From an uncultured Lachnospiraceae bacterium (GTDB lineage Bacteria; Bacillota; Clostridia; Lachnospirales; Lachnospiraceae), in NCBI GenBank assembly GCA_944384105.1, contig CALWSC010000047.1, positions 1-43,662 of the forward strand: a stretch of DNA of 43,662 nt. The letters run 5' to 3'. How positions within the stretch are numbered: the first letter of the stretch is position 1; every line of letters starts with the position of its first letter. The position numbers and the translations under genes were made by a program. The notes below the pieces were generated by a model. The model made no database searches. It was not told the DNA's origin and saw nothing but the letters and a program-made list of their open reading frames with translations. Shown piece by piece: positions 1,576-24,015 of this stretch.

Positions 1576-1610
1576 TGGGAGTATTATAGGGACGTAATAA
1601 AATTAAACAA

Positions 1611-1745
1611 GGAATCTTCGGGGCGGGGTGCAATTCCCCACTGGCGGTACAGTCCGCGACCTGCGGCAGAAGGATCTGCTGCGGCTGAATCGGTGCAATT
1701 CCGATACCAACAGTTACAGTCTGGATGAGAGAAGAGATATGCAGT
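1611..1745 (+). promoter_or_regulatory. FMN riboswitch (RFN element)
   Basis: The conserved RFN blocks appear in order: ATCTTCGGGGCGGGGTGCAA, ATTCCCCACTGGCGGTA, CAGTCCGCGA, a variable hairpin, GGTGCAATTCCGATACC, CAGTCTGGATGAGAGAAGA. The 5' and 3' ends (ATCTTC and GAAGAgAT) can close the P1 stem. It sits 95 bases before a riboflavin transporter gene and is followed by an intrinsic terminator, which fits transcription attenuation: FMN binding favours termination and lowers ribU expression. The regulatory direction is from known RFN elements, not measured. Confidence 0.96.
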
Positions 1746-1761
1746 GACGCTTTAAATTTCA

Positions 1762-1797
1762 GGCTCCGGGATTAATATATTTCCCGGGGCCTTTTTT
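1762..1797 (+). terminator. Intrinsic terminator of the FMN riboswitch
   Basis: GGCTCCGGGA and TCCCGGGGCC form a 10-bp stem (one G-U pair) around an AT-rich loop, followed directly by TTTTTT. It lies between the aptamer and the ribU start, as expected for the expression platform. Confidence 0.85.
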
Positions 1798-1840
1798 GCT
1801 GCAGAGTTCTTGAAGATTTCCTGGAAATGGAGGAATTCTT

Positions 1841-2479: not shown

Positions 2480-2502
2480 TTACATGAAAGCAGGCGAGAA
2501 TC

Positions 2503-4865: not shown

Positions 4866-4878
4866 TCAAATAAAAGTA

Positions 4879-4907
4879 TTTAGAACATCGGAGGATTATG
4901 CTATAAT
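4879..4907 (+). promoter_or_regulatory. Sigma-A-type promoter of the ABC exporter
   Basis: TTTAGA, a 17-base spacer, then a perfect TATAAT at 4902-4907, 32 bases upstream of the likely start codon of the ABC transporter. Confidence 0.65.
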
Positions 4908-4938
4908 TAGGCGGAAAACAAAATAAATGGAGGAAGCT

Positions 4939-6678: not shown

Positions 6679-6703
6679 CCTTTTGGGAAAAGAAGTGTAT
6701 ACT
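6675..6703 (+). promoter_or_regulatory. Sigma-A-type promoter of the aminotransferase gene
   Basis: TTGACC, a 17-base spacer and TATACT. The -35 box overlaps the stop codon of the upstream ABC transporter gene, so the aminotransferase can be transcribed alone. Confidence 0.75.
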
Positions 6704-6738
6704 TTAGCGTGTTAATATGAGAAAGGGGAACAAGCATT

Positions 6739-7926: not shown

Positions 7927-7932
7927 CGGAAG

Positions 7933-8060
7933 TATGCCGATGAGGAAATAACAGAGAAAGGATAGGGCAGAAGTCCTCTCGGCATATAAAATGAGCATAC
8001 ATTATAAATAGAAAGAATTTTTTCGGGCGGCAGGGGGATGCGTCTCCTATGCCGCCCGAA
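7933..8060 (+). promoter_or_regulatory. Two strong hairpins in the hisC leader
   Basis: Arms 7933-7946 (TATGCCGATGAGGA) and 7974-7986 (TCCTCTCGGCATA) pair over 13 bp with one bulge. A second hairpin has perfect 11-bp arms TTCGGGCGGCA (8021-8031) and TGCCGCCCGAA (8050-8060). Neither is followed by a T run, so they are not ordinary terminators. They may set mRNA stability or access to the hisC start. Confidence 0.45.
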
Positions 8061-8078
8061 ATGCCCTGGTATAAGATA

Positions 8079-9170
8079 ATGAGAGAATGGGAAAACAAGG
8101 TTCGCAAGGTAGTGCCCTACACCCCGGGCGAGCAGCCGAACGAACCGGATATGATCAAACTGAACACAAACGAAAATCCATACCCCCCGTCCCCGCGCGT
8201 AATGGAAGCACTGCTAAAAATCATGCCGGAGAGTTTAAAGCTATATCCGGATCCGACAGCAGGAACCCTTGTGCGCGCGCTGGCAAAATACCACGGTGTA
8301 GATGAGAGCCGCGTCTTCGTGGGGGTCGGTTCTGACGACGTCCTGGCGATGTGCTTCCTTACATTCTTCCAGAGCGGAAAGCCGATCCTGTTTCCGGATA
8401 TCACCTACTCGTTCTATGACGTGTGGGCAGAGCTGTTTCAGATACCGTACAGAAGAATGAGGCTAAACGACAACTTTGAAATAGAACTGAGAGATTATAT
8501 CTCACAAACAGAAGAGAGCGGCGGAATTATTTTTCCCAACCCGAACGCCCCCACGGGCATTGAACTGGAACAAAAAGAGATAGAAGAAATTGTGAGAAAA
8601 AACCACGACAAAATTGTGATTGTGGACGAGGCATATGTGGACTTCGGAGCCTTGTCGGCAGTCAGCCTGCTTGACCAGTATGATAACCTGATTGTAGTGC
8701 GTACTTTCTCCAAGTCCCGCGCGCTCGCCGGCATGCGCATCGGCTATGCCCTGGGAAGCCCCCAGGCGATTGGCTACTTAAACGATGCGAAATATTCCTT
8801 CAACTCCTATACCATGGATCAGACTGCGCTCGCCGCGGGGAAGGCGTCCGTGGAGGATGAGGAATATTTTCGGGAAATGCTTGCGCGTGTAATCAGTACC
8901 CGCGAGTGGACAAAGCAGGAACTGAAGAGACTGGGCTTTACATTCCCGGACTCCAAGGCGAACTTCATCTTCGCCTCCCACCCGTCCTGCCCGGCAAAAC
9001 AGCTCTATGAGGCTCTGCGCCAGGCGCATATCTATGTCCGATACTTCAATAAACCCCGGATTGACAATTACCTGCGCATCACCGTGGGAACCCGCAGCGA
9101 GATGGAAACCTTTATAAAGTTCCTTGAAAAATATCTGGCGGACGCAGGAATATATTCAGAAAAACCATAA
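8079..9170 (+). CDS. hisC: Histidinol-phosphate aminotransferase family protein
   Basis: About 363 residues; the N-terminus VRKVVPYTPGEQPNEPDMIK and LNTNENPYPPSP are typical of HisC-like enzymes. PLP residues are present: FPNPNAPTG (152-160), Asp183 and Tyr186 in VDEAYVDF, Lys212 in RTFSKSRALAGMRIGYALG. HisC transaminates imidazole-acetol phosphate to histidinol phosphate, but no other his gene is nearby, so a HisC-like enzyme acting on another amino acid is possible. The start at 8079 matches family N-termini; an in-frame ATG at 8049 lies inside the 11-bp hairpin. Neither has a clear SD, and a 13-codon reading frame (8038-8079) ends with its TAA overlapping the 8079 ATG. Confidence 0.85.
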   Translation: MREWENKVRKVVPYTPGEQPNEPDMIKLNTNENPYPPSPRVMEALLKIMPESLKLYPDPTAGTLVRALAKYHGVDESRVFVGVGSDDVLAMCFLTFFQSGKPILFPDITYSFYDVWAELFQIPYRRMRLNDNFEIELRDYISQTEESGGIIFPNPNAPTGIELEQKEIEEIVRKNHDKIVIVDEAYVDFGALSAVSLLDQYDNLIVVRTFSKSRALAGMRIGYALGSPQAIGYLNDAKYSFNSYTMDQTALAAGKASVEDEEYFREMLARVISTREWTKQELKRLGFTFPDSKANFIFASHPSCPAKQLYEALRQAHIYVRYFNKPRIDNYLRITVGTRSEMETFIKFLEKYLADAGIYSEKP

Positions 9171-9207
9171 TCTCTGCAATATGGCTTTTTTGACGGCAGA
9201 AAATGGT

Positions 9208-9243
9208 AAAACGCCGAAAAACCTGCGAAATATTGGGCGTTTT
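9208..9243 (+). terminator. Possible terminator downstream of hisC
   Basis: AAAACGCC and GGCGTTTT form a perfect 8-bp stem, with the T residues inside and just after the 3' arm, 38 bases after the hisC stop. A weaker A-rich/T-rich hairpin overlaps the stop itself (9160-9190). The 20-base loop makes the call moderate. Confidence 0.4.
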
Positions 9244-9280
9244 CCACAGTTTAAAAGCCCGGATTATTACAAATCGACGA

Positions 9281-9309
9281 TTTACAAATGCAGAATGTTT
9301 TGCTATAAT
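9281..9309 (+). promoter_or_regulatory. Strong promoter P1 in the gene-free stretch before gene A
   Basis: TTTACA, a 17-base spacer, TATAAT. The predicted start of transcription is about 9316, more than 300 bases before the gene A start codon, so it makes either a long leader or a separate RNA. Confidence 0.75.
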
Positions 9310-9315
9310 ACCCTC

Positions 9316-9455
9316 AAGCAGGATGTTTGTTGAATGTCTGCAAAATGGCGGTGTAAGAATCTTTATCCTGTAAGGGTCCTGCCAAGGTAGAAAGAACACC
9401 CCCGTCCTGCAGACAACGGTATTTCACTTATATAGGTACATAAAGCAGGCGCTTA
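9316..9455 (+). ncRNA. Candidate structured RNA from promoter P1
   Basis: No reading frame of note is present. From the predicted transcript start, AAGC can pair with GCTT at 9451-9454, TGTT...GTCTGC (about 9329-9341) with GCAGACAACG (about 9407-9416), and GGCGGTGT with ACACCCCC further in, giving one long, interrupted hairpin. I do not recognise a named family: the conserved SRP motif is absent, and a 6S-like rod is only a possibility. There is no clear terminator after it, so it could equally be the upper leader of gene A. Confidence 0.3.
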
Positions 9456-9479
9456 GAATGAAAAAATCTTAAAAAAGTA

Positions 9480-9508
9480 TTGATATTCTAAAATGTTTGT
9501 GGTATTGT
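9480..9508 (+). promoter_or_regulatory. Promoter P2 of gene A
   Basis: TTGATA, a 17-base spacer, TATTGT, placed about 150 bases upstream of the SD and ATG of gene A. It would give a leader of about 140 bases that is open in the gene A frame. Confidence 0.6.
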
Positions 9509-9655
9509 AGCAGTAAGCGTAATGCCAACGGTGGGTTGTTTATGGGCTTTTCCAAAATCAATAACTATTCAAGTACATATCTAGGAAAAGAACTTGAAGC
9601 TTGCCGGAAACAAACAAATTATAGAGATTTAGTCAAAATAAGGAGGTTAAAAGAA

Positions 9656-12600
9656 ATGGCGAAAATTTCAAAAAATGCTAAAAAGTTATTAGCGTTAACA
9701 CTCGCCGGTGTAATGACAGTTGGTACAGCCGTACCTGGTACTGCCATGAGCAGCGTCCAGGACGTTAAAGCTGAAGATATGACTGGTGATTTCGCTGCTC
9801 AGTACGCTGAAAGAACCAGTGCCGCTTGGATGAGCAAAGTAAAACAGGTCTTTGATACCCTCTATGTCGGAGCTGACCAGAATATCCTGACCCAGACACA
9901 GTGGGAGGCAAAACAGTATATCACAGGCGTCGTTCTTGGTGCAGAGATCGGCGATCCGCTTGCTGTTTATACCGCAATTCAGGAGAATTTCGATGCAATT
10001 CTCGGTGAGGGGCAGTGGGACCTGTTTATGTCAGACCACGTTCTGAAAGTTGAGGAGTCAACACCGGATCAGGTAGCTGAGCGTGTAGACAACCAGGCAT
10101 GGAACCTTACATTTACTATATATTACGATGAGACAAAAGACACCTCTTCCGCACAGGAAAAAACCCTGAAGAAAACTCTGGAGTTAAGCGCTAACGAAGC
10201 ATATGCCAGCGAGCACGCAAGCGCAGGCGCAGCTGCTATCTCCGGCGGAAACGGAATCAACGAGCAGGTGTCCAAAGCTCTGGATATCGTAACATCTGCA
10301 GATATCGCTGAGAACCTGCAGGCAGTTGAGGACGAGCTTCCGGGCATCGTTTCCATCTCTACTGCCGAGAACCTGGACGCAGCTCTGATTGCTGACCAGG
10401 TAATCCGCGCATACAACCGCGCGCTGAGCGAGGGAACAACTTACGGGCTGGATCCGAAGTTCGCTAACTACTTCACAGCATTTATTGATGTTAATAATAT
10501 GACAGCAGCTAACTGCTACATTGATGAGGAAGGCTACTGGCATGGAAATCTGGAGATCAGAAATACAAAGAACAGCGAGGATATCACAACCTTACAGCTG
10601 TCCTTTAAGCTGACTGTATCTTCCGATGTATATAAAGAAATGGCAAGTTACCTGGACGAGCACTTAAACGGCGAGACCTTATATGTACCGTTTGGCGCTG
10701 ACCTGCGTGACGGCTATGGCAATGGATATGTAGAGGGCAGCCTGATGCAGGCTGCTAAGGAGCTGTTCGAGAAACATCAGTTCATCGATACAAACGGCGC
10801 TCTGGCAGATGAGCTTCTGCACCTGAGAGGCGGAGCTACTGTCCTGACAAAAATTGACGACCACACAGCGAAGCTGGAGGCAACTCTGGTGATCGGCATG
10901 ACAGATTCCCAGGGAGGTATTGTAGGACCGAGCGAGGAAATCCCGGTAACTATGACCGTATCTGAGGACGTCATCGACAACATCTCCCTGCAGGATGCAA
11001 GCGGCAACGAAGTAACCAGCCAGGAGCTTGAAATCGCACAGGAAGACCTGTCCAATCTGAATATCGCAAACGCGGTAATCACAGGCGCTAAGCTTGGACG
11101 TTATGACAGTCTTCCGTATGAGCAGTTCCAGGATGAGACGAATGAGTTTTTCATGGTTGATAACGGCGGCTTCAACAAGAACAAACTGGGAAGTTACGAC
11201 TATACCGTAAGCTCCAACGATGACCGCAGCCCGGACAGCGCAGATAAGACTGTGACAGTAAAGGTTGTAAAGACCATCCAGGATCTTCTGGGATCTTATA
11301 CTTCTGTATCCTCCAGCGACACAGACGTTGCTGCTATCGCTGCTGACGGTACCATCACCGCTTACAAGGCAGGCGAGGCAACCATCACAGTAAAAGGCGC
11401 AGATTTCTCTGAGAAACAGTACAAGCTGACTGTAAAAGAGGACGGAACCTTTACCCTGAAGCAGGTAGTAAACAACGCAGACTCCTATGTCTCCAACAGC
11501 ACAGACGTACTGGGCTTTGTATACCATGACGGAGAGAGCGGATACAGCTTTAAGACAACACATAAAGTAGCTTCCGCAGCAGAAGAGTCTGACATCGTAG
11601 CAGACGTTACCTTCGACGCTGAGGCAAATGCATTCGTAATCAAACCGGTTGCAGAGGGAACTGCAGAAGTTACCATTAAGGGTGGAGACCGCGGACGCCT
11701 GAAAGCTACAATTGATATTAATGTAGACAAGTTCGGCGTTGTAACTACAAACGTATCCACAAACGTAACAGGCTTCAAGCTGGACAGCAGCGCAGAGGCA
11801 ACTGTAAACGCAAAGAACTTCTATGAGAATGATTACGTTACCCTCGATTCCATCGGATTCGGCGAAGACGACAAGCTGATCATCCTGTACGATGAGAATG
11901 GACAGACCAAACAGGATACTGTACCGGCTACAGACCTCAAGGGCGTATACCTGAACACCATCGACAATGCGCGCGATATGGCTATCAACTTCTTCTATGC
12001 AGGATATGTAGCAAACATGACCGTTCCGGTTATGGGACAGATGTCTATCGGTCTGACAGAGTTAGGATTAGTTCCGACAGAGATTGTAAACTTTGAAGGA
12101 AAGATCCTGGATCAGAAAGACGACAAGATCACCGGACAGTATGCAAGTGTAGAAATTGTTGACGGACGGGTTGTTATCAAACGTACCTCCAAAGATAAAG
12201 CTACAGATGCAAACATTGTAACGGTTGCAGACGAAAAAGGAAACGAGGCGTCCTTCACTATCACGGTAAGAGATGACGGAACCAATACCTATATGGTGGA
12301 GATCACAAACTATACGCCATATGACCTGACAAAGGCAGCTACTTCCTTCACAGCTCCGACAAAGACGAGCTACTATATCGGCGAGAAGCTGGATACCACA
12401 GGCGGTTCTATCAACATCAATAACGCTGCAAGCATCGACCTGGAGCCGAACATGGTAACAGGATTTGATTCCAGTGTTGCTACACAGAGCCAGTTAATCT
12501 CCGTTTCTTACGGAATGCTTTCCAGAAACAACTCTGATTATACTTACACAGTAAGAATCAAAGCACGCACAGAGACTGTAAGCCTGTCTGACCTCGGACT

Positions 12601-13465
12601 GAAAGCTTCTGAAGTTAAGACAGTAAGCAGCGCAGGCGATGACGGCATCACCGCAAAACTGGACGGCGATACCATCGAGATTGCAGCTACCAAGATCAAT
12701 GAGAGCGGAGCCGTTGTCATCGAGACAAAATCCGGAGATAAGCTTGCTGTACGCGTAGATGTTGATGAGAATGGACAGATTGCAACAGATGTTGTAAAGA
12801 CATTTGAGGAGTCTTCCAAGTCCCTGGATAATACAGAGGATGTATTCGGCATCATCGGAACAACCATCGAGTCCGAAAACCCGGATATCGCAACCGTTGA
12901 AATTAAGAACGGCTTTGTAACCATCACATCCCATGCACAGGGAAGCACCACGGTCAAAGTGGCAAACGGTGACGACGTAGCGACCATCGACGTAACTGTT
13001 GACGAGTTCGGAAACATCACCACAACCGTACATAAATACAATGAGGACGGCTGGAGAGACCTTGGCGATGGAAACTGGGGCTACATCAGAAATGGTGAGC
13101 GCGTAGTATCCGACTGGGTAGTTGTAGAGGAAGCTGACCCGTACAACAACAACGAAGTTGGAAAAGTATGGTACCACTTTGGGGCTGACGGACTGATGCA
13201 GCGCGGCTGGATCGTGGACGAGACAGGCTGGAAGATCTACCTGTTAGACTCCAACGGACGTATGATGCACTCTCAGTGGGTAAATGCACCGGCTCAGGAG
13301 TCCCTGAACAGACCGGCTGGTATGTACAAGTTAACAGATGACGGAGCCGTACAGATGAACGGCTGGGCGAAATCTGTAGATAACGAGAACATCGAGTGGT
13401 TCTGCAACGCCGGAAACGGATTATTCGAGGTTAATAATCCGGCTTCCTGGAGAGTTATCGGCTAA
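9656..13465 (+). CDS. Gene A: large secreted Ig-like surface protein with C-terminal cell-wall-binding module
   Basis: The start is set by AGGAGG at 9641-9646 and a clear signal peptide (MAKISKNAKKLLALTLAGVM then TVGTAVPGTA); an upstream in-frame extension to 9497 is not needed. The mature protein is about 1,230 residues, acidic, beta-rich, almost without cysteine. A BIG2 Ig-like domain is visible at about residues 540-592 (SSSDTDVAAIAADGTITAYK, AGEATITVKG), another Ig-like unit resembling Big_3 at about 888-968 (APTKTSYYIGEKLD), and a last Ig-like repeat at about 1070-1130. Residues about 1135-1270 have W/Y/G-rich repeats of the choline- or glucan-binding type (VWYHFGADGLMQRGWIVDET). No sortase motif or membrane anchor. 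Likely an abundant wall-attached protein; ligand unknown. It is the intact, expressed partner of gene B. Confidence 0.85.
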   Translation: MAKISKNAKKLLALTLAGVMTVGTAVPGTAMSSVQDVKAEDMTGDFAAQYAERTSAAWMSKVKQVFDTLYVGADQNILTQTQWEAKQYITGVVLGAEIGDPLAVYTAIQENFDAILGEGQWDLFMSDHVLKVEESTPDQVAERVDNQAWNLTFTIYYDETKDTSSAQEKTLKKTLELSANEAYASEHASAGAAAISGGNGINEQVSKALDIVTSADIAENLQAVEDELPGIVSISTAENLDAALIADQVIRAYNRALSEGTTYGLDPKFANYFTAFIDVNNMTAANCYIDEEGYWHGNLEIRNTKNSEDITTLQLSFKLTVSSDVYKEMASYLDEHLNGETLYVPFGADLRDGYGNGYVEGSLMQAAKELFEKHQFIDTNGALADELLHLRGGATVLTKIDDHTAKLEATLVIGMTDSQGGIVGPSEEIPVTMTVSEDVIDNISLQDASGNEVTSQELEIAQEDLSNLNIANAVITGAKLGRYDSLPYEQFQDETNEFFMVDNGGFNKNKLGSYDYTVSSNDDRSPDSADKTVTVKVVKTIQDLLGSYTSVSSSDTDVAAIAADGTITAYKAGEATITVKGADFSEKQYKLTVKEDGTFTLKQVVNNADSYVSNSTDVLGFVYHDGESGYSFKTTHKVASAAEESDIVADVTFDAEANAFVIKPVAEGTAEVTIKGGDRGRLKATIDINVDKFGVVTTNVSTNVTGFKLDSSAEATVNAKNFYENDYVTLDSIGFGEDDKLIILYDENGQTKQDTVPATDLKGVYLNTIDNARDMAINFFYAGYVANMTVPVMGQMSIGLTELGLVPTEIVNFEGKILDQKDDKITGQYASVEIVDGRVVIKRTSKDKATDANIVTVADEKGNEASFTITVRDDGTNTYMVEITNYTPYDLTKAATSFTAPTKTSYYIGEKLDTTGGSININNAASIDLEPNMVTGFDSSVATQSQLISVSYGMLSRNNSDYTYTVRIKARTETVSLSDLGLKASEVKTVSSAGDDGITAKLDGDTIEIAATKINESGAVVIETKSGDKLAVRVDVDENGQIATDVVKTFEESSKSLDNTEDVFGIIGTTIESENPDIATVEIKNGFVTITSHAQGSTTVKVANGDDVATIDVTVDEFGNITTTVHKYNEDGWRDLGDGNWGYIRNGERVVSDWVVVEEADPYNNNEVGKVWYHFGADGLMQRGWIVDETGWKIYLLDSNGRMMHSQWVNAPAQESLNRPAGMYKLTDDGAVQMNGWAKSVDNENIEWFCNAGNGLFEVNNPASWRVIG
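9715..9772 (+). repeat. Left copy of the A/B shared block (candidate inversion site)
   Basis: From GACAGT to AAAGCT at the end of the signal-peptide coding region. The inverted counterpart in gene B is at 21808-21865. About four fifths of positions match, with an identical 13-mer GTACCTGGTACTG at 9731-9743 that contains the palindrome GTACC-T-GGTAC. Upstream of GACAGT the two loci show no similarity. Its role as a crossover site is inference. Confidence 0.5.
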
Positions 13466-13521
13466 TCCAAGGCAAGACTGGCAAAAAAGACAATAAGTAC
13501 TTAATTCCGAGACATAATCCG

Positions 13522-13658
13522 CCTGCCCTCCTGTCCAGCAGGGGAGGCAGGTACCCCTCAAAGGAAAAGGGATCGGGATTCCTGTACGGAGAATAGGCGT
13601 ACAAGAATACTCAAACGGAAAGAATTTCTGCTGTTAGTGTATTCTTGTGCGCTGTTTT
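13522..13658 (+). terminator. Hairpins and likely terminator after gene A
   Basis: A first GC-rich hairpin (arms 13522-13533 and 13539-13551) has no T run. A second has arms GCGTACAAGAATAC (13597-13610) and GTATTCTTGTGCGC (13639-13652), 14 bp with one G-U pair, followed by TGTTTTTAAC; this is the better terminator, although its loop is 28 bases. The remainder of the 260-base gap before gene C holds only its weak SD (GGGGG at about 13711-13715). Confidence 0.5.
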
Positions 13659-13725
13659 TAACTTATGAATGGTAAAAAATGGAAACACAGGAAAAGTTTC
13701 TAAGATTTATGGGGGCATAAGAGCA

Positions 13726-16362
13726 ATGTATAAGAAGAAGTTAATGAAGATTTGCCTGGCAAGCGCACTGGCGGTATCCATGGTATCGACGAATGTGGCT
13801 CCGGTGGTGGCTGCGGATGTGGCTGTTGCATCAGTAGACGAATTTCTTGTTAAAGTAGAGTTTAAGTGCGGTGAGGATATTATCGAAGATAAAGAGTCTG
13901 AGGACGGTTATTATTACCTCAAGGCAACTCAAAATGGCACGGATAAGACTCTTACAATTACAGCATCAGAATTGGAAAAGCATATACCTGATCCCGAAAA
14001 GTACGAGTTAGTAAGTCAAGATTCGGTTATTATAGGGTATAACGAAACATTAACAGTGCAGCTGCAGAAAAAGACGCAAACGGTTAATGTAAATTACTGG
14101 TGCCAGGAAGAAAATAAGCAGGTTGGCACAGAAGTTGTTAGCGTCGATGCAGACGCAACACATGTAAATATCGATGAGTTGAAATCTATTCCGGAAGGAT
14201 ATGAACTGGTATCCGCTGGTGAGGTACAGATTAATGATGGGTGGATTTTCGTTGATGTTCGCAGAAGTGAAGAACAGGCGACCACAAAAGAGATTAATGT
14301 AAATTACTGGTGCCAGGAAGAAAATAAGCAGGTTGGCACAGAAGTTGTTAGTGTCGATGCAGACGCAACACATGTAAATATCGATGAGTTGAAATCTATT
14401 CCGGAAGGATATGAACTGGTATCCACTGGTGAGGTACAGATTAATGATGGGTGGATTTTCGTTGATGTTCGTAAAATTGAAAACAGCTCTGAAGAAACAG
14501 GTGATTTCTTCGTAGATGTCAGATTTATGTACAATGGATGTGAGTACCAGGTAGTAAATGACTGCATTGTAAATGGTAAAAAACATGTTTCTGACGATGC
14601 TACATATACCATGTTTAATTATTCTGAACTGGAAGAATATGTTCCAGAAGGATATATCATGACGATGTCCGGTGAGGTAACTGTATATGCAGGTCAGACG
14701 GTAGATGTGAATATTGTACCGGAAAATGCAAGTGTATCCGTTGGAGATTTCCGTGTAGATGTTAAATTTACATATGCCGGTGCAGAGGTTGATACTGTTA
14801 AAGATTGCATTGTAAACGGCACCCAGACAACCGCTGGAGAATTAACGTATACTATTTTTAACTATTCTGAACTTGAAGAGTATGTTCCAAAGGGATACGT
14901 TCTTACTCCGACTGGAGAAGTAACTGTTTATGACGGAGAAACACTGGAAGTCAACGTTGCACCGGAAGAAGCAAACGTATCTGTAGGCGATTTCTTCGTT
15001 AAAGTAAAGTTTGTTTCTGACGGCAAAGATATTACATCCGAGCAGGGCTACATTGTAAACGGTACTCAGATTACTAACAGCAACCACACATTTACGCTTT
15101 TTAACTACTCCGAACTGAGCGAATATGTTCCGGCAGGATATAAAATGACGGCATCTGGCGATGTTACTGTTACAGACGATGAAGTATTGGAAATAAACGT
15201 AGAGGCTGTAGAGCCAAAAGTATCCGTAGGCGACTTCTTCATAAAAGCAAAATTCGTTTGCGATGGCGAGGAGCTTACTCCGGAAGTAGACTGCATTGTA
15301 AATGGTACACAGACGGATAACGGTCAGTGCGTTTATACCATGTTCAATTATTCTGAGCTGGAAGACTACGTTCCGGAGGGATACGTTATGACTGCCAGCG
15401 GAGATGTTACTGTATATGACGGTGAAGTCCTTGAGGTAAACGTTGCTCCTAAGGATGCATCCGTATCTGTCGGCGACTTCTTCGTAAATGTAAAATTTGT
15501 TTCTGACGGTAAAGAGGTTGTTCCTGCAAAAGATTACATTGTAAACGGTACACAGGTAGATAATGGTAAATATGTCTACACCATGTTCAACTACTCCGAG
15601 CTGAAAGAGTACGTTCCGGAAGGATACGCAATGACAGCAGCTGGCGATGTTACAGTTTATGATGGAGAGACTTTAGAGGTTAACCTTGATAAAATTCAAA
15701 AAGAATCCATTATCAATGTACGCTTTGTATACCACAAGAAAGTGCTTGCCGGCGGTGACTATTTTGTAGATCCGGATGGCGACGGAATCTTCAACTGGTC
15801 TGAGCTCAGCAAATATGTACCAGATGGCTACAAGATGCTCAGATGGGGCAATGAATCTGTAAAAGCAGGTCCATTCGTAGTACAGCTTGCAAAGGAGACG
15901 AACACAGTACCGGGAACACCGGGAATCGATGGCAAGAAGAACGGCTGGTACAAAGTCGGGGATTCTGATTGGAGCTACTACATCGACAACGAGAAAGTAG
16001 TTTCCGACTGGGTAGCGGTAGAAGAAGCTGATCCATACAACGGCAACAAAGTCGGAAAAGTATGGTATCACATGAACTCAGAGGGTCTTATGGACAGAGG
16101 ATGGATTATCGATGAGACCGGCTGGAAGGTATATCTTCTGGATTCCAACGGACGTATGATGCATTCCCAGTGGGTAAATGCACCGGCATCTGAGGAGCTT
16201 GGAAGACCTGCAGGCCTTTACAAACTGACCGATGACGGAGCCGTACAGATGAACGGCTGGGCAGAGTCCGTAACACCGGGAATTTACTGGTTCTGCAACG
16301 CAGGCACCGGACTTTTCGAGGTAGACAATCCGGCATCCTGGGGTTCAGAAAAGCTTTTCTAA
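13726..16362 (+). CDS. Gene C: secreted repeat protein with the same C-terminal cell-wall-binding module
   Basis: About 878 residues from the ATG at 13726, which gives a good signal peptide (MYKKKLMKICLASALAVSMV, ending near APVVAAD); an in-frame ATG at 13669 would bury it. After a divergent first unit come two nearly identical units resembling MucBP (INVNYWCQEENKQVGTEVVS, IPEGYELVS), then five repeats of exactly 81 residues (GDFFVxVKF, CIVNGTQ, FNYSELEEYVPEGY, VTVYDGETLEVNV) and a shortened sixth. The last about 140 residues are the W/Y/G-rich wall-binding module shared with A and B (MMHSQWVNAPA, LTDDGAVQMNGWAES). Probably an adhesin- or mucin-binding-like wall protein; the ligand is not known. 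It lies inside the segment that would invert, but has its own leader and terminator. Confidence 0.83.
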   Translation: MYKKKLMKICLASALAVSMVSTNVAPVVAADVAVASVDEFLVKVEFKCGEDIIEDKESEDGYYYLKATQNGTDKTLTITASELEKHIPDPEKYELVSQDSVIIGYNETLTVQLQKKTQTVNVNYWCQEENKQVGTEVVSVDADATHVNIDELKSIPEGYELVSAGEVQINDGWIFVDVRRSEEQATTKEINVNYWCQEENKQVGTEVVSVDADATHVNIDELKSIPEGYELVSTGEVQINDGWIFVDVRKIENSSEETGDFFVDVRFMYNGCEYQVVNDCIVNGKKHVSDDATYTMFNYSELEEYVPEGYIMTMSGEVTVYAGQTVDVNIVPENASVSVGDFRVDVKFTYAGAEVDTVKDCIVNGTQTTAGELTYTIFNYSELEEYVPKGYVLTPTGEVTVYDGETLEVNVAPEEANVSVGDFFVKVKFVSDGKDITSEQGYIVNGTQITNSNHTFTLFNYSELSEYVPAGYKMTASGDVTVTDDEVLEINVEAVEPKVSVGDFFIKAKFVCDGEELTPEVDCIVNGTQTDNGQCVYTMFNYSELEDYVPEGYVMTASGDVTVYDGEVLEVNVAPKDASVSVGDFFVNVKFVSDGKEVVPAKDYIVNGTQVDNGKYVYTMFNYSELKEYVPEGYAMTAAGDVTVYDGETLEVNLDKIQKESIINVRFVYHKKVLAGGDYFVDPDGDGIFNWSELSKYVPDGYKMLRWGNESVKAGPFVVQLAKETNTVPGTPGIDGKKNGWYKVGDSDWSYYIDNEKVVSDWVAVEEADPYNGNKVGKVWYHMNSEGLMDRGWIIDETGWKVYLLDSNGRMMHSQWVNAPASEELGRPAGLYKLTDDGAVQMNGWAESVTPGIYWFCNAGTGLFEVDNPASWGSEKLF
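14084..14471 (+). repeat. 178-bp direct tandem duplication inside gene C
   Basis: Bases 14084-14261 and 14294-14471 are identical except at two positions, with a 210-base period (70 residues). Such near identity points to a recent duplication or ongoing conversion. Confidence 0.95.
14500..15714 (+). repeat. Five in-frame 243-bp repeats inside gene C
   Basis: Units begin at 14500, 14743, 14986, 15229 and 15472, each exactly 243 bp (81 codons) and each starting at the GDF motif. They diverge in sequence but keep length perfectly; a degenerate sixth unit follows from about 15715. Confidence 0.92.
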
Positions 16363-16403
16363 TACAATAAAAGTGCATAATAGTTGGCTAAATCTTGAGA
16401 TGG

Positions 16404-16429
16404 AAAAGGATTCTTCGGAATCCTTTTTC
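16404..16429 (+). terminator. Terminator of gene C
   Basis: AAAAGGATTC, loop TTCG, GAATCCTTTTT: a 10-bp stem with a stable UUCG tetraloop merging into a T run, 41 bases after the gene C stop. Confidence 0.9.
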
Positions 16430-16454
16430 AAGTTAAAGCTGACCTAAAAGAAGT

Positions 16455-17092
16455 CGGGATTAATTTGGGGGGATTCTGTTCTTAACGAACAGATATGTGA
16501 GGGAACCATGACAGTTCGGTTTTTGCCGAGAATGTAAAAGTAGTCGAAATCTCTCTCCCACAGTGCTATGACTTTGTGAGCAGCACAGATACGTCCATTA
16601 CAATGATGCTGAGATCTAGGCTGAAGTAAAAAAATCAGACGTAACTGTAAGAATCAACTACCGGGACATTGAGAACAACACGCAGATAACAGAGGGTAAT
16701 ATTACTGTCTCCGGATACGACACAGCACTCAATACCGGTAATCTGCAAATTCCGGAAGGATATATCAGAGCATTGCTAAACAGGATCTTGCCGTTAAATA
16801 TGGCGAGACTATGGATACTCTGCAAATAGCTCTTGAGAAATGCAAAGACGCTGTCCTGAAGAACAAGCTGACAGATGAATTCGGAGAACTCATAGATGAG
16901 ATCACGCTGGTCAAAACCGGAAAAGAAAATGAGGCCATAACTTTTATTTACGTAGAAGACTGGACAATCCCGGAAGGCTACACATTTGTAAGCTTTCATG
17001 ACGAACAGATTGCAAAACAGGATGTAGTAGTTAAATACGGTGAGACACTGGATAGCTTTACTGCTGCGATTGTCCCGGAGACAGCAAAATAA
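16455..17092 (+). pseudogene. Degraded repeat-protein remnant related to gene C
   Basis: Pieces in different frames resemble gene C units: PQCYDFVSSTDTSI around 16556-16598, then VRINYRDIENNTQITEGN and LQIPEGYI (about 16645-16765), then after a frameshift QDLAVKYGETMDTLQIALEK and IPEGYTFVSFHDEQIAKQD to the stop at 17092. Stops and at least one frameshift break the reading frame, and no signal peptide or SD remains. The last 93 codons from 16811 are open but lack a plausible start. It ends before a good terminator, which suggests it was once a complete gene, probably a duplicate of C. Confidence 0.7.
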
Positions 17093-17116
17093 AACTGTCA
17101 AAATATGCAAAATTAT

Positions 17117-17149
17117 AACAGGCAGGTGAAGCAGCCTGCCTGTCATTTT
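17117..17149 (+). terminator. Terminator after the repeat-protein remnant
   Basis: ACAGGCAGG (17117-17125) and CCTGCCTGT (17134-17142) form a perfect 9-bp stem with an 8-base loop, followed by CATTTTTAC. Confidence 0.85.
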
Positions 17150-18174
17150 TACATATTTTCAAAAATCTGTAAATTGCATCAGCCTGGCGCATCTATCCAC
17201 ATATGATTTTGAAAATTTTTCTCGAAAATCGTAATAAAAAAACACGCTTCGGTAAAACCTAGTTCATAAGAAACCCCCTAACAATCACAAGGATGAAAAG
17301 CGCCATGTGCAATTCCCATCCTCGGTGTTTATCATAGAAAATCGGGTGCCTTCTATCAGGAAAAGGTTTTCCGAAAATCCATCTTGCCCGCTTACAAAGC
17401 CGCAAGCAGAAAGACAACTACAAGGAACACATATCCCTTCGGCAAAGGATATATCCTGCTGATTCAGCCGTCTTCTCAGCTCTCGTAATGGAATTTAATG
17501 GATTTGCTGTGCAACCTAGTTCTGCAAATATGCATGGTTTCTGATCCCACGCCCCTCTTAAACCGTACTAAGGCAAAGAAGATAACCAAAAAACAGTACA
17601 ACTGCAGATATATCCCCGCTATCCGCTAGATACCTGTATGTTTCCAACGCATACAACTCATGCCGCCAGTCCTTCAGGAAACATCGGTCAGTTACAGTAT
17701 CCGTCCTGAGTAAATAAAAATATGCAAAATTTCCTGAGAGACTTTACGGAAGAATCAAAGTTTGGAAACAGAAAAATAGAAAAATTTCCTTGTGAAACAG
17801 GAAGGACATTTACGTAAAGAATGAAAAATTTTTTCGGCGATAGGAAGCAAATATCTCAACGCAAAAAGAAGTAGTATGAACCGATCCCCTCTAGAAAAGA
17901 TCGTGTAATAAAATCTGTGTAAGTTCCGCTAACCTGCTCCTCAAATCATATCAGATCCCAGAAATGTCAGTCAAGGCTCGAACCCATACTTTGACTGCAT
18001 TTCCAGGCTTTAAGGCAACGTAATCAGGCAGGCAATGACTGAATTATCAGATAATTTACTTACACACTTTTTTGGACAACTCCTAGAAATGAATAAGTAA
18101 ATTATCGGATATCTCTCCAGAGCGCAACAACCAACAAAGATTGATTCACACGCTTCTCTTGCCCCCTATTTTTG
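17150..18174. other. Gene-free stretch, about 1 kb, inside the island
   Basis: No reading frame with recognisable similarity, SD or signal peptide was found on either strand; the longest open stretch (about 60 codons after 17333, +) resembles nothing I know. A short motif CCTAGTTC occurs twice (about 17259 and 17513). The stretch is probably decayed DNA. One perfect 13-bp inverted repeat near its right end is listed separately. Confidence 0.6.
18050..18106. repeat. Perfect 13-bp inverted repeat
   Basis: GATAATTTACTTA at 18050-18062 and TAAGTAAATTATC at 18094-18106, separated by 31 bases. It is AT-rich and is not followed by a T run on either strand, so it is not a standard terminator. It could be a protein-binding or recombination site, or a remnant of a mobile-element end. 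Confidence 0.6.
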
Positions 18175-18219
18175 TTTAAATTTTAAAGGAGGTAGTCGTT
18201 CATATGAGCGACTGCCTCC
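18175..18219 (-). terminator. Probable terminator of gene B
   Basis: An 11-bp stem (18188-18198 with 18209-18219, one G-U pair) and 10-base loop lie 76 bases beyond the gene B stop. On the minus strand the stem is followed by TTTAAAATTT, a weak T tract. Confidence 0.5.
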
Positions 18220-18294
18220 CCTCTTGAGGACTATCGAAATTTTCCGAATATCCTTCATTTCTGTATCGCTTATTTCTTTGAGAATTCTAACTTA

Positions 18295-21200
18295 TTAGCT
18301 CACAACTCTCCAAGACGCTGGGTTATTCACTTCAAATAATCCGTTTCCGGCATTGCAGAACCATTCGACATTCTCGTTATCAACAGATTTTGCCCAGCCG
18401 TTCATCTGAACTGCACCGTCATCTGTCAGTTTGTACATACCAGCCGGTCTGTTCAGGGACTCCTGCTCCGGAGCATTTACCCACTGAGAATGCATCATAC
18501 GACCATTGGAGTCTAACAGGTAAATCTTCCAGCCTGTTTCATCCACGATCCATCCGCGCTGCATCTTTCCATCAGCACCAAAGTGATACCAAACTTCACC
18601 AACTTCGTTATTATTATAAGGATCAGCTTCTACAACACTTCTCCAGTCAGATACTACCATCTTACCATCTTCATAATAATACCAGTCTGTACCATCCTGT
18701 ACCCAGTGCTCTTCTTCTGGCTCTACGTACGGATGAACAGTTGTGGAAATGGAACCGTCAGCATTTACAGTCACATCAATTGTAGCCTCATTTCCATCTT
18801 TGTCGGTTACAGTTACAGTTGCTGTTCCGGGTGCAATAGAAGTAAGTGTAACTCCGTTTTCTTTTGCATCGGCAGTAACAATAGAATTGTCAGTTGATGC
18901 TGCGCCAGCAGGAGCAAGTCCTAATTCGTCTGCACTGATAACTTTCTGAGATTTATTAAATACGATAACTCTTTCAGCTGTAAAGTTTCCATCCTTGTCT
19001 ACAGTAAGGTTTGCCACATACGTGTTTCCTTTATCTGTCTTAACGGTCAGAACAGCTTTCTGATTTACTGCATTTGCATATGTTTTTACATATGTATCTC
19101 TCACAACATCAATTTTAATTTCTGACTCTCCGTCGACAAAAGTAGCACTCTTAATCTTTTCATCACTTGCCATACCAAGATCAGAAGCATTTACTGTAAG
19201 TTCGGCAGCCTCTACGCTAATCTTAAAGGTTTTTTCAACCCCGCCATACTGGAATGTTACGGTTTGATTCTGAGCAACTTTGGATGAATCAAATCCGTCA
19301 AACATATTTTCTGTTAATGAAACAGTTATGGTTGGATCATTGGTTTTGGGAACATAGCTGAATGCTGCTCCAGTTAAATCCAGTTTTTCACCAATAGTAT
19401 AAGTGTCCTTTGTCGGAGCTGTCCAATTGATAGTTGCTTTAGTTAAATCTAAGCCATTTACATCAAATTTAGTAAATGCGTAATTAGCCGTAGCTGCATT
19501 TACTGTAGCCTGTGCACCATTGGCATCATAAAAAGTGATAGTTGTATCAGAAGCTGATGCCTCAGGATTTACAGCCTTAACTGTTATTTTTCCGTTGTCC
19601 AGAGAAACGGTCACTTTATCATTTGATACCGTATAACGTGTTGCAACTAATCCCAGGGCTTCTCCGTTTAAGGTGGCAGTTGAGTTATTGTCACATGCAA
19701 ATTTCTCTTTTAAGGTGACAATAACAGCTTCCCCGTTTGTACGCAGCCACTGTCCGCCGAATCCAGCATCTAAGTAAGCGGCTTTAGCTCCCCAAGCGCT
19801 GCCATCAGCGAACTCAAAGTCTACTTTACTAAGAGGTAATGTGTCAGATACAGTTTTTCCATTGGCCAAAACAGCATTAATGGTTAACTTATTTGCATCT
19901 ATATCGATTGCTTCTGCTACACATTCTTTAACTTTATCAGAGTTCTTTAAGTTACCAGCTTCTAAATAATAGTCTCCATTGGTAAGAGTACCTCTAACAG
20001 CACTCGAAACAGAAACATCAGAAACAGTAATTGCGCCAGTTACATTGCCAATTGTAACAGCACCCGTAGCACTAACTTCAACAGGGACGATGTATACGAG
20101 TTTGCCTGAATCTCCAAAGTGAATTTCGACTTCAGTTTCTCCTACCGCTTTTGGTGTAATGCGCAGGCGATCATTGCCCTTGCTATCCTTCTCGTAAGAT
20201 GCATCTACAACATCTTCTTCCTGAACGACTATAGAAACATCCTGCCCTATAGCTAAAGATGCGCTCATATCTTTAAATGTCTTTGTTGTGCCAGTGCCAT
20301 TAAAGTCTGTTTCTACTTCGATATTTCCTTTATTATCAATTACGAAATTAACAGTAATGGTATTACCCTTATCATCTGTTAATTCAGCTTCTACAGTGCC
20401 TGCTTTTAATACTCTGACATTAAAATCATTTCCATTAGGAGCATCAGCTTTTAAGATCGTTTCATCCTTGGATTTTAAAGCTGTAATTTTTGTCAAATTA
20501 ACGTCTTTTGCAGCAATGGTTTTCTCTTCGTATACAGTAACAGGAAGTTCTACTTTTTTAGTATTATCGTTTGTCAAACGAATATATACCATAGTAGAGC
20601 CGATGTTATTCTTTTCATATGCACCGGTATCAATAACAATTTTTCCTTCTGATACAGCCTGTTTCAACGCAGCGCCACCAGTAATCTGCTCGGTTGTTCC
20701 ATCTTTTTTTGTAAGACGAATAGACACACCATCATAATTTAAGTTTGTATATTCTACAGAGTTTAATTTTACATTTTTTGCATCATCACTCCGGCGATCA
20801 TATACCAATGTGATATCTGTATATGCAGCACTGGCGTCAGCAATTAAAGGAACATTTACTTTTCCGGTTGCTGCAGCACCATTTGTTAATGTGATTTTTA
20901 CAACACCTTCCCAAGATTTATTATCTTCGTCATCGGCTATAATATCACCATAATTTACGTCGGCAATTTCAACTGAAGCAATACGTCTGTCAGCATCTTT
21001 AATAGCAGGAGCAATATAGTCTGTGAAAAACTCAGCACCTGCTGTTCCTACATTGATATAACTAGAATCTACAGAAACAGGATCTACATCCAGTGATTCC
21101 AGAACCTGTTTAGCCTCTTCGGAATCCTTTTCCTCTACCTCTATAGAGATATTAAAGTTACGAGGCGTATCACCTGTATTCAAGGTATTTGTGATTGTAA

Positions 21201-21882
21201 CTGTACCATTCCAAGTAGTGTTGGCAGTTGAAGAACCAGTTACATCAATATCGAAGTTGCTCTTCACTACTTCTGGTAATCCAGAAACTTTAGTATTAAC
21301 AAGCTCTTCTGCATATTTTAAAGCCTCTGTAGCTTTAGCACCATCTGTAGTGCCATAAGGAACAGATACTTTCAAATTTTCAAAAGTATCATCTGCCTTT
21401 AAGCGATTCTCCACCTGTCCGCTCCAATAAAAAGCAACAGATACTGTGTAAGGCATTGCAACACTAATATTTCCACCATCAAGAAGAAGGTATAAATCAC
21501 CGGAAACATCTACAGTCCCACCAACATTCTGCTGGTCCCCTAAAGCACTATACAATGTAGTACTCGGATTACTAGCTAAAAATTCTCCATAACTAGCTGT
21601 AGTATTACCCAGAACATTTAAAGTTGCTACAGCTGTATTGAATGCATTAGCTACCGTTTCATTAGTGTCAGCTGTTCCTGACATATAGGAATAATATGCT
21701 GGCATTTCGGCCTTGATCGCAGAAAGGTTATCCTGGAGGACTTTCATAGCCTCATCCACTTGCGCTTTCTGGTCGGCAGTCAAATCGTTATACGCTTTAT
21801 TTTCAGCAGCTTTGACTTCCTGAACTGTGCTCATAACAGTACCAGGTACAACCGTACCTACTGTCTCGACCTCCAAATCCAC
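18295..21882 (-). CDS. Gene B: intact homologue of gene A lacking signal peptide and RBS (probable silent body)
   Basis: An open frame of about 1,195 codons. The first codons (VGTVVPGTVMSTVQEVKA) align with the end of the gene A signal peptide (VGTAVPGTAMSSVQDVKA), but the upstream hydrophobic part is missing; an in-frame TGA lies eight codons before the only possible GTG start at 21882, with no SD. The body has Ig-like units, including a Big_3-like one (APTKDTYTIGEKLDLTGA), and ends in the W/Y/G-rich wall-binding module (IVDETGWKIYLLDSNGRMMH; FCNAGNGLFEVNNPASWRVV), nearly the same as A. Such a long uninterrupted frame argues against simple decay; I infer a silent body that could be expressed after joining to the signal peptide of A. 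A recently truncated gene is the alternative. Confidence 0.8.
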   Translation of the reverse strand: MDLEVETVGTVVPGTVMSTVQEVKAAENKAYNDLTADQKAQVDEAMKVLQDNLSAIKAEMPAYYSYMSGTADTNETVANAFNTAVATLNVLGNTTASYGEFLASNPSTTLYSALGDQQNVGGTVDVSGDLYLLLDGGNISVAMPYTVSVAFYWSGQVENRLKADDTFENLKVSVPYGTTDGAKATEALKYAEELVNTKVSGLPEVVKSNFDIDVTGSSTANTTWNGTVTITNTLNTGDTPRNFNISIEVEEKDSEEAKQVLESLDVDPVSVDSSYINVGTAGAEFFTDYIAPAIKDADRRIASVEIADVNYGDIIADDEDNKSWEGVVKITLTNGAAATGKVNVPLIADASAAYTDITLVYDRRSDDAKNVKLNSVEYTNLNYDGVSIRLTKKDGTTEQITGGAALKQAVSEGKIVIDTGAYEKNNIGSTMVYIRLTNDNTKKVELPVTVYEEKTIAAKDVNLTKITALKSKDETILKADAPNGNDFNVRVLKAGTVEAELTDDKGNTITVNFVIDNKGNIEVETDFNGTGTTKTFKDMSASLAIGQDVSIVVQEEDVVDASYEKDSKGNDRLRITPKAVGETEVEIHFGDSGKLVYIVPVEVSATGAVTIGNVTGAITVSDVSVSSAVRGTLTNGDYYLEAGNLKNSDKVKECVAEAIDIDANKLTINAVLANGKTVSDTLPLSKVDFEFADGSAWGAKAAYLDAGFGGQWLRTNGEAVIVTLKEKFACDNNSTATLNGEALGLVATRYTVSNDKVTVSLDNGKITVKAVNPEASASDTTITFYDANGAQATVNAATANYAFTKFDVNGLDLTKATINWTAPTKDTYTIGEKLDLTGAAFSYVPKTNDPTITVSLTENMFDGFDSSKVAQNQTVTFQYGGVEKTFKISVEAAELTVNASDLGMASDEKIKSATFVDGESEIKIDVVRDTYVKTYANAVNQKAVLTVKTDKGNTYVANLTVDKDGNFTAERVIVFNKSQKVISADELGLAPAGAASTDNSIVTADAKENGVTLTSIAPGTATVTVTDKDGNEATIDVTVNADGSISTTVHPYVEPEEEHWVQDGTDWYYYEDGKMVVSDWRSVVEADPYNNNEVGEVWYHFGADGKMQRGWIVDETGWKIYLLDSNGRMMHSQWVNAPEQESLNRPAGMYKLTDDGAVQMNGWAKSVDNENVEWFCNAGNGLFEVNNPASWRVVS
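21808..21865 (-). repeat. Right copy of the A/B shared block (candidate inversion site)
   Basis: On the minus strand it runs GACAGT to AAAGCT, the counterpart of 9715-9772, in the same reading frame. The identical 13-mer is at 21837-21849 (plus strand CAGTACCAGGTAC). Similarity to the A locus ends just upstream of GACAGT. Confidence 0.5.
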
Positions 21883-22002
21883 CCAAAATCCAAGGCATTT
21901 TCCTCACAATCAAATCCATAAAAAATGAAAAAACAGCAAAATTTTCTCGTCCTTTTATTTCAAATTTAATTTAGCAAACAGTAAAAAATAAAAATGCATA
22001 GA

Positions 22003-22476: not shown

Positions 22477-24015
22477 ATGAATGTAGCGGCGTATTGTCGG
22501 GTTTCGACGGATAAGGAAGACCAGCTGAACAGCTTGGAGGCTCAGAAGGAGTTTTTTGAGGAGTATACGAGAAAGCAGGGGTATCATCTGGTGCAGATTT
22601 ATGCAGATGAGGGACTTTCGGGGACGAAGATCAAGAACCGGACGGGGTTTTTGCGGATGATGCGGGATGCACATGAGGGGATTTTTGATATGGTGCTGGT
22701 GAAGGATATTTCCAGGCTGGCGAGGAATACGGTAGACCTGCTGAACAGCACCAGGGAGCTGAAAGCGCTGAATATTGACATGCTGTTTCTGACTTCAAAT
22801 ATGACGGTAATGGATAATTCGGAGTTTATGCTTACGATTTTCGGGGCGCTGGCACAGGAGGAGAGCTCAAATACATCTAAGAGAGTGAAGTTTGGAAAGC
22901 GCCAGAATGCCAAGAAAGGTAAGGTTCCAAATCGGGTGTTTGGGTATGACAAGACGATAGGGGATCTGTTTCATCTGGCAATTAATGAGGAGGAGGCGGG
23001 AATTGTCCGCAGGATTTTTGATCTGTATCTGCATGAGGGGTACGGGACGCTGAAGATTTCCAACATTCTGAACAGGGAGCATTTAAAGACAAAGAACGGC
23101 TGTGATTTTTCCAAAAATGCGGTCGTTCGGATTTTGTCAAATCCTCTCTATACGGGGAAGGTGATTAACGGGAAGCAGGAGGTGGCGGATTTTCTGACGG
23201 GGAAGCGGCGGGATATTGCGCCGGAGGAGTGGCTGATTGTCGAGCGGCCGGAGCTGCGGATCGTGGAACCGGAGGATTTTGAGGAGGCACAGAGAATTCT
23301 AAGGGAAAGGCAGGAAGCCGCACATGCCAGGAAGGGATCGTCGGAGGGCGGAATGCCGTTTGGCACGCTGATTCGCTGCAGGGAGTGCGGATGTCCGTTC
23401 AGGCGAATGGAGCCGACTGCCGCACATCCCGAGGCACGATGGGTGTGCAGTACGCGGTATGCAAAGGGGGAGGTTCCCTGCGGGAATAGGGCAGCAGCGG
23501 ATGAGGGATTGCTGCTGGGAAAGATCAGGGAGTATTTTTCTTTCCTTGTGGGGAATAAGGAGAGGGTAAGGGGGGAGATCAGGGAAGCGTTTAAGAGAAA
23601 GTATGGCAGCGGTGAAGAAAACGAGCGGCAGGAGAGGGAAGTTGGCGACCGACTGGAGAAGCTGAGGGCAAACCGCAGAAGGTATGTAGATCTGTTTGAC
23701 GAGGAGCTTATTACCAAGGAGGAGCTCAAGCTGGAGCTGAACAGTACAAAGCGGGAGATGGACGGGATGGAGAGGGAGCTCATGAAGGTGCAGGAGAGGC
23801 TGGCTATGGGGAGAAGGATGGATGGCTTGATTGAAAAGATGTTTTTGGAACTGGAGCAGCTTTTAAGTGCTGCTGAAGTGACAAGTGAGCTTCTGGGGCG
23901 CAGCATTCAGAGGATTATCATCCAGGGGGATGGGAAATGTGAGGTGTTTTTGAAGCTGTTCGAGGAGCTTGGACATGTGAATCGGGGAAATCTGGTGGGA
24001 AAGTTTAAGCTTTGA
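22477..24015 (+). CDS. Large serine recombinase
   Basis: 512 residues. The resolvase-type catalytic domain (about 1-145) starts AAYCRVSTDKEDQ with nucleophile Ser10 and Arg8, and has VLVKDISRLARN with Arg80 and Arg83. Next come a recombinase DNA-binding domain (about 155-275), a zinc ribbon (Cys301, Cys304, Cys324, Cys335) and a charged coiled coil (about 375-460). This is the layout of the large serine recombinases that integrate and excise phages and transposons or carry out site-specific rearrangement. All key residues are present, so it appears active. No other phage or conjugation gene is nearby; the closest partners are the surface genes, and the candidate site in gene B lies 0.6 kb upstream. 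SD GGAGGAGGG lies a little far (about 10 bases) from the ATG. Confidence 0.93.
   Translation: MNVAAYCRVSTDKEDQLNSLEAQKEFFEEYTRKQGYHLVQIYADEGLSGTKIKNRTGFLRMMRDAHEGIFDMVLVKDISRLARNTVDLLNSTRELKALNIDMLFLTSNMTVMDNSEFMLTIFGALAQEESSNTSKRVKFGKRQNAKKGKVPNRVFGYDKTIGDLFHLAINEEEAGIVRRIFDLYLHEGYGTLKISNILNREHLKTKNGCDFSKNAVVRILSNPLYTGKVINGKQEVADFLTGKRRDIAPEEWLIVERPELRIVEPEDFEEAQRILRERQEAAHARKGSSEGGMPFGTLIRCRECGCPFRRMEPTAAHPEARWVCSTRYAKGEVPCGNRAAADEGLLLGKIREYFSFLVGNKERVRGEIREAFKRKYGSGEENERQEREVGDRLEKLRANRRRYVDLFDEELITKEELKLELNSTKREMDGMERELMKVQERLAMGRRMDGLIEKMFLELEQLLSAAEVTSELLGRSIQRIIIQGDGKCEVFLKLFEELGHVNRGNLVGKFKL

Follow-up and report, generated by a model that had tools for sequence, protein, structure and literature searches.

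We present evidence that a 43,662-nucleotide (nt) contig of an uncultured Lachnospiraceae bacterium (CALWSC010000047.1, assembly GCA_944384105.1; hereafter the window) carries what is probably a multi-site switch of surface-protein cassettes, in which a single expression site serves alternative protein bodies and the crossover falls inside signal-peptide codons. In this assembly the expression site is occupied by gene A; a second large reading frame of opposite orientation, body B, has no leader (and is called headless below), and a gene for a large serine recombinase (LSR) lies beside it (coordinates in Table 1). The window is one of the 123 contigs of a 2.93-Mb genome (G000; 78% complete) and was compared with two further species of the same genus, G001 and G002, each represented by one genome (the G002 locus is on contig CALWBA010000085.1 of an uncultured Lachnospiraceae metagenome-assembled genome). 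An initial annotation of this DNA had proposed an inversion that exchanges A and B, as in phase or antigenic variation, and had pictured a switch of two genes only. The system is larger, with three core sites in G000 and three in G002, and that annotation contained neither the LSR, nor a further gene between A and B (gene 2), nor a 375-nt repeat at the 3' ends of A and B, nor a third headless body on another contig.

The A and B frames share an inverted pair of blocks (9715-9773 and 21807-21865; 59 nt, 81% complementary, 12,033 nt apart), which is read in the same frame in both genes. The initial annotation was thus right about orientation and frame, and the pair is not an exact repeat (longest identical run, 13 nt). 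Within each block lies the 21-bp core pattern GGTACRGYYGTACCTGGTACT. When up to 3 mismatches were allowed, this pattern matched the window twice, both times at the block, compared with no match in 100 dinucleotide shuffles, which rules out a chance repeat as the origin of the core pair. The short core, GGTACRGYYGTACCTG, usually followed by GTACT, lies inside signal-peptide codons. Further, the 16-nt core pattern was found three times in G000, once in G001 and three times in G002, and all seven matches stand at the junctions described here; the reversed pattern, used as a control, was found in none of the three genomes. Because each of these places had been identified beforehand, the search shows that there are no others and did not discover the seven. 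Among 45 centres scanned for dyad symmetry, the core ranks first, with a mean of 7.6 of 12 pairs over the seven sites, and the next best has 5.1. Six of the seven sites agree at five fourfold-degenerate codons of the core (three of the five are constant in all seven), compared with an agreement of 0.39-0.46 at such codons in five other body pairs and 0.81 between the two A genes, and two other core codons vary (ACA/ACG and GCC/GCT/GTT). The core was defined after its conservation had been seen, and its codon constancy is supporting and not independent evidence. A single stretch matching the core on a viral contig (L140) falls within a protein of a different kind, and we took this match as chance.

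The leader of A (9656-9721) comprises the N-terminal and hydrophobic part of a signal peptide, which was recognised by eye. The initial annotation had credited A with a promoter, a Shine-Dalgarno sequence, a signal peptide and a body; the Shine-Dalgarno sequence and the signal-peptide-like start bear this out, and the promoter is less secure, with upstream matches of 11/12 (distal) and 9/12 (proximal) within a count of three on both strands that is near chance (shuffled mean 1.7, standard deviation 1.3). The body of A gave Big-like and choline-binding Pfam matches just under the cut-offs.

Body B consists of 1195 open codons. Its frame is closed upstream by a TGA, the first in-frame start being a GTG at 21882, seven codons later, followed by a TTG two codons on. 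As the initial annotation had stated, B lacks start signals of the usual kind, in that neither a Shine-Dalgarno sequence nor a signal-peptide-like or hydrophobic stretch was seen by eye before the block, notwithstanding the in-frame GTG and TTG. The further claim that B is a full-length homologue of A from the end of the signal peptide holds in part: outside the block the two proteins align over approximately residues 499-1268 of A and 415-1194 of B at 36% identity, and no alignment of their N-terminal thirds was obtained. The nearest relative of B, a headless body at a position of the G002 locus that we call site 3, matches it over 1187 codons at 69% amino acid identity and without stops, at a pN/pS of 0.295 (bootstrap 0.267-0.331) and a dN/dS of 0.12, the latter a rough value with synonymous change near saturation. 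On this single pair, B is under purifying selection, and the ratio rules out a dead copy. A sequence that is never expressed would not remain so constrained, and B has presumably been kept as one that is expressed at times. The structure model of B is weak (predicted local distance difference test score 64, predicted template-modelling score 0.28); a Foldseek search with it placed SbsB (two chains), EA1 and Sap in the top four ranks, with expect values (E) of 2e-7 to 4e-6 and template-modelling scores of only 0.06-0.11, and ranks 5 and 6 were unrelated proteins at similar E. We therefore only tentatively regard the bodies as surface layer (S-layer)-like coat proteins.

Comparison with the two relatives revealed that the same leader is joined to different bodies. 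The initial annotation had looked to assemblies of relatives for the other orientation; what they provide is a different body behind the same leader in G001, a difference between species, and G002 has A at its expression site. G002 aligns with window positions 1-13818, its A protein being 95% identical, and continues after A with gene 2 and one further gene. Next come a headless body (site 2), the LSR gene, the gene for diaminopimelate (DAP) epimerase and the headless body of site 3, both bodies being on the minus strand. Each of the two starts at the core, in frame; the LSR gene adjoins a headless body, and bodies stand on both sides of it. G001 aligns with window positions 1-9779 only, and the last 100 nt before the core are identical. 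This identity stands out because four genes upstream have diverged between the window and G001 to 1.1-1.6 synonymous substitutions per synonymous site (dS). After the block, G001 carries a different body: ungapped nucleotide identity is 0.20-0.45 from position +60, the protein shares 25-26% identity with that of A over a later stretch of ∼350-370 residues, and the body as a query at E 1e-5 matched the other two genomes only at the leader. We note that the G001 assembly is interrupted on either side of the locus, with contig C16 ending in the body and contig C143 beginning just inside the DAP epimerase gene; such breaks could stem from a mixture of orientations in the sampled population, and other causes are as likely.

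The headless bodies themselves are paired differently with their flanks in the two species. Compared with the 69% identity to the site-3 body given above, B shares only 23-27% amino acid identity with the site-2 body. The flank just outside B, up to the core, resembles that of site 2 (70% over 91 nt, E 1e-5), and its last 20 nt are 80% identical to the site-2 flank and 50% identical to the site-3 flank, so that directly at the core it matches only site 2; in gapped alignments, 0 of 1000 dinucleotide shuffles reached the score with site 2 over 40, 60, 100 or 200 nt. Because the body of B is like that of site 3 and its adjoining flank like that of site 2, the same type of body stands behind different flanks in the two species, and the change occurs at the core. 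In addition, a search with B found the third headless body of G000 on contig C101 (1129 residues, without the C-terminal domain of the others). At its 5' edge stand, in frame, the first 16 core nucleotides, and a gene with a 4Fe-4S motif (seen by eye) lies 1.6 kb upstream, as one neighbours site 3 in G002. Contig C123 of G000 holds part of a further body, without its 5' part and 41% identical to the site-2 body. The headless sites B, G002 sites 2 and 3 and C101 also have in common a T-rich stretch of 25-30 nt, located ∼60-90 nt outside the core (window 21918-21947), the likeness of the C101 copy being weak (E 0.002). This stretch could be an accessory element or simply low-complexity sequence.

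The LSR gene is intact, encodes 512 residues and is divergent from B, ∼600 bp from its open end. Among the 30 window proteins included in the Pfam scan it is the sole recombinase, with matches, in this order, to the Resolvase (PF00239, 1.3e-36), Recombinase (PF07508, 5.2e-23) and zinc-ribbon (PF13408, 4.9e-6) domains; the remainder are mostly proteins of ordinary chromosomal genes (Tex, ABC transporters, aminotransferases, DAP epimerase, AsnA, trigger factor, ClpP, ClpX, Lon and others). Profile matches to CcrB, CcrC and XisF models were all below cut-offs, and structure matches were to TnpX and the TP901-1 integrase. The window and G002 enzymes are 84% identical overall (96% in the first half) and form a clade of their own (support 100/100) beside 13 sequences of the same family (83/89, short of the level that the tool stars). 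At E 1e-130, relatives were found in 17 of 397 Lachnospiraceae genomes, including two members of the genus.

How would such a locus operate? In the scheme that we favour, the expression site, which ends in the core, would supply the promoter, the ribosome-binding site and most of the signal peptide, namely its N-terminal and hydrophobic part. The leaderless large bodies elsewhere begin at the same core without a change of frame, and each would contribute a cleavage-site region of its own. A site-specific crossover between the leader core and the oppositely oriented core of a headless body would invert the DNA between them, so that one body is expressed and secreted and the other is parked in silence. 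That bodies have been exchanged is evident from the comparison of species; we infer that inversion is the route, presumably still within present-day populations, and that the enzyme is most likely the LSR encoded beside the headless body. More specifically, and only tentatively, we suggest that an LSR has here been taken into service to shuffle whole surface-protein bodies reversibly among several sites, the site of the enzyme lying in signal-peptide codons such that bodies swap in frame with their own cleavage site. The inversion of A and B proposed by the initial annotation thus gains from the different body behind the leader in G001, the re-pairing of bodies and flanks, the selection on B and the adjacent LSR, and loses from a mismatch within the core: the dinucleotide at the dyad centre is GC at A, GT at B and C101, and GC at the G001 site and at all three G002 sites. 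For the A118 integrase, PMC3556126 reports that the central dinucleotides of recombining sites must match and that a symmetric central dinucleotide allows both orientations.

This mismatch is the first of several points that weigh against the proposed switch, since, if the dyad centre is the point of crossover, GC versus GT may make a flip of A and B in exactly this assembly blocked or rare; alternatively, the crossover may lie in the invariant right-hand part of the core. For the LSR class, unidirectional recombination between unlike sites is usual. The core sites described here look alike, unlike the site pair of the A118 integrase, which acts one way between unlike sites (PMC3556126). The different bodies behind one leader were seen between species (G001 versus G000 and G002), with one genome each, which counts against a claim of flipping within one species. 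The likeness of the B flank to site 2 is not exclusive: ungapped identity over 100 nt is 0.55 with site 2 and 0.56 with site 3, and in gapped alignments with site 3 the score was reached by 65, 85, 0 and 3 of 1000 shuffles over 40, 60, 100 and 200 nt, the likeness further out being a 30-nt T-rich stretch (83%). The C101 site is on a separate contig from A and B and retains 16 core nucleotides, and no clear likeness was seen between its flank and that of site 3 (189, 127, 41 and 69 of 1000 shuffles over the same lengths). In G001, no body was found at the counterpart of site 3, and no match to the LSR at E 1e-40, in an assembly whose contigs break at the locus. G000 encodes a second LSR (C6:36963-38027, L096; 38% identical over residues 2-346), a possible alternative switching enzyme. 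Finally, we viewed by eye the neighbourhoods of LSR relatives (up to three open reading frames of at least 140 residues per side at 17 loci, from all 15 genomes outside the genus that had a match at E 1e-130 plus G057 and G026, and 8 further loci; several contigs are short). No headless surface bodies were seen beside the relatives from other genera at these loci; 34 genomes had LSR matches in a wider search, most of them outside this survey. Because such bodies were not seen elsewhere, the link between the LSR and the switch rests on two genomes, and LSR homologues were rejected as a general marker of such switches. The neighbours recognised by eye in other genera recur: a GuaA-like gene at four loci (L127, L129, L135 and L088), an rnf-like operon or RnfC-like gene at three (L090, L091 and L137), and MreB- and FlgF/G-like genes at four (L046, L047, L092 and L136). 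This recurrence suggests repeated insertion places or vertical keeping.

Table 1. Features of the window discussed in the text
Feature	Position	Strand	Basis or remark
Promoter-like sites upstream of A	9281..9309 and 9480..9508	+	Consensus scan
Shine-Dalgarno sequence of A, AAGGAGG	9640..9646	+	Sequence; 9 nt before ATG 9656
Gene A, occupying the expression site; surface protein of 1269 residues	9656..13465	+	Open reading frame; near-cut-off Pfam matches
Putative recombination core at the expression site	9722..9742	+	Inside 59-nt block 9715-9773; pattern matches, shuffles
3' arm of A, C-terminal domain	13092..13466	+	85% inverted repeat with B
Gene 2, encoding a repeat protein; has a start of its own	13669..16362	+	C-terminal domain as in A and B; inside the A-B segment
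Remnant, like the 3' end of the further gene of G002	16769..17076	+	68% over 311 nt
3' arm of B	18294..18668	-	Inverted repeat partner of 13092-13466
Headless body B	18295..21882	-	Open to codon 21882; likeness to the 5' end of A starts at 21865; purifying selection
Putative recombination core at headless body B	21838..21858	-	Pattern matches, shuffles
LSR, candidate switching enzyme	22477..24015	+	Resolvase, Recombinase and zinc-ribbon domains

A different explanation is that bodies are reassorted by RecA-type homologous recombination or gene conversion, the core simply marking where shared sequence starts on the 5' side and the LSR being a bystander gene of a mobile element. Consistent with this, A and B share an inverted repeat of 375 nt and 85% identity at their 3' ends, and LSR relatives were not seen beside surface proteins at the loci viewed. 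Further, a patch directly after the core in the otherwise near-identical A alleles (window 9743-9763 versus G002 contig positions 25351-25371) has 6 differences in 21 nt and looks as if copied from another site, as gene conversion might leave it. However, exact identity at the 5' end never extends beyond 13 nt, which is short for RecA; the points of exchange coincide with the dyad-symmetric core; and the five fourfold-degenerate codons of the core are more constant than those of the five other body pairs, with the reservation, given above, that the core was chosen after conservation had been seen. We therefore consider this explanation unlikely. We note separately that the 3' repeat could support homologous inversion of the intervening 4.8 kb, which would leave the expressed body unchanged. 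Within that segment, gene 2 has kept its C-terminal domain relative to its G002 counterpart (C85, 29334-31400), but its repeats and N-terminal region have diverged strongly (47% identity where the two align).

Alternatively, the exchange could be evolutionary only, bodies moving between species by horizontal transfer with no reversible switch within a cell line. The divergence between G000 and G002 is uneven in a manner that could fit such a history: dS is 0.33 for the A body, below the values for three upstream genes (0.75, 0.81 and 0.81) and for the LSR (1.08), and ∼2 for B and its counterpart, above them. The mismatch of central dinucleotides in this assembly points the same way. This account is nevertheless improbable, in that the headless bodies have been kept intact under purifying selection (on the one pair compared), which needs repeated expression, and in that core sites and LSR have been kept in both genomes with an assembled locus. 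It is still harder to maintain that B is expressed as a non-secreted protein from its own GTG or the following TTG. These starts are in frame, and a scan of the B strand found one 9/12 promoter-like match (22035-22007) in a region with two sites compared with a shuffled mean of 2.2; however, no Shine-Dalgarno-like stretch precedes the GTG, no hydrophobic segment was seen by eye, and in G002 a stop closes each headless frame, four codons before the core in one and six in the other. That B is an unexpressed, truncated relic which has lost its 5' end, as the missing ribosome-binding site and signal peptide might suggest, is hardly credible in view of its 1195 open codons, its pN/pS against a headless homologue of another species, and the three more headless bodies (two in G002, one on C101) that share its 5' edge.

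The cassette switch that we propose has partial parallels among known systems. The sap locus of Campylobacter fetus keeps silent copies with a conserved 5' region, and its rearrangement is RecA-dependent over long 5' identity. The title of Dworkin and Blaser (1996), listed in PMC4902306, describes the generation of C. fetus S-layer protein diversity from one promoter by DNA inversion. The present locus is like sap in having one expression site and surface-protein diversity by a proposed inversion. It differs in that the promoter of sap sits on the invertible segment, whereas here a core of ∼21 bp has an LSR gene adjacent; moreover, the long identical 5' regions typical of a sap-type switch are not found, the longest run being the 13 nt noted above. 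The slpA/slpB switch of Lactobacillus acidophilus involves two genes. In that organism, active and silent S-layer genes are swapped by inversion of a chromosomal segment, as stated in the title of Boot (1996), also listed in PMC4902306, and SlpB is reported to be expressed after chromosomal inversion (PMC5893755). The likeness lies in the working, with active and silent surface genes, and the difference in the number of bodies, here at least three, with an LSR beside them. Neither S-layer switch resembles the present locus in its very short core inside the signal peptide with an LSR at its side.

In its order of Resolvase, Recombinase and zinc-ribbon domains, the enzyme is like the LSRs A118 integrase, TnpX, Ccr and XisF. 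These act mainly in integration or excision, unlike the case proposed here, which involves cassettes of surface genes and look-alike sites. Inversion of a short segment before the gene by a tyrosine recombinase controls CwpV. This phase-variable surface protein belongs to a gut clostridium, Clostridioides difficile (PMC2784873); in the present locus, unlike CwpV, whole protein bodies would be exchanged. An LSR-linked switch of surface bodies is not named in the titles or abstract openings of the papers listed in searches on the subject.

If the proposed switch is correct, an uncultured lineage of Lachnospiraceae changes its outer coat by exchanging, behind a single leader, proteins of ∼1,150-1,270 residues, a matter relevant to how such bacteria vary their contact with the host, phage and neighbours. 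It would also provide a natural case of a serine recombinase acting on short look-alike sites, in which the reversibility of such enzymes becomes directly testable. LSRs are best known as one-way integrases, and the reversible shuffling of surface-protein bodies would, if true, be the novel part of the finding.

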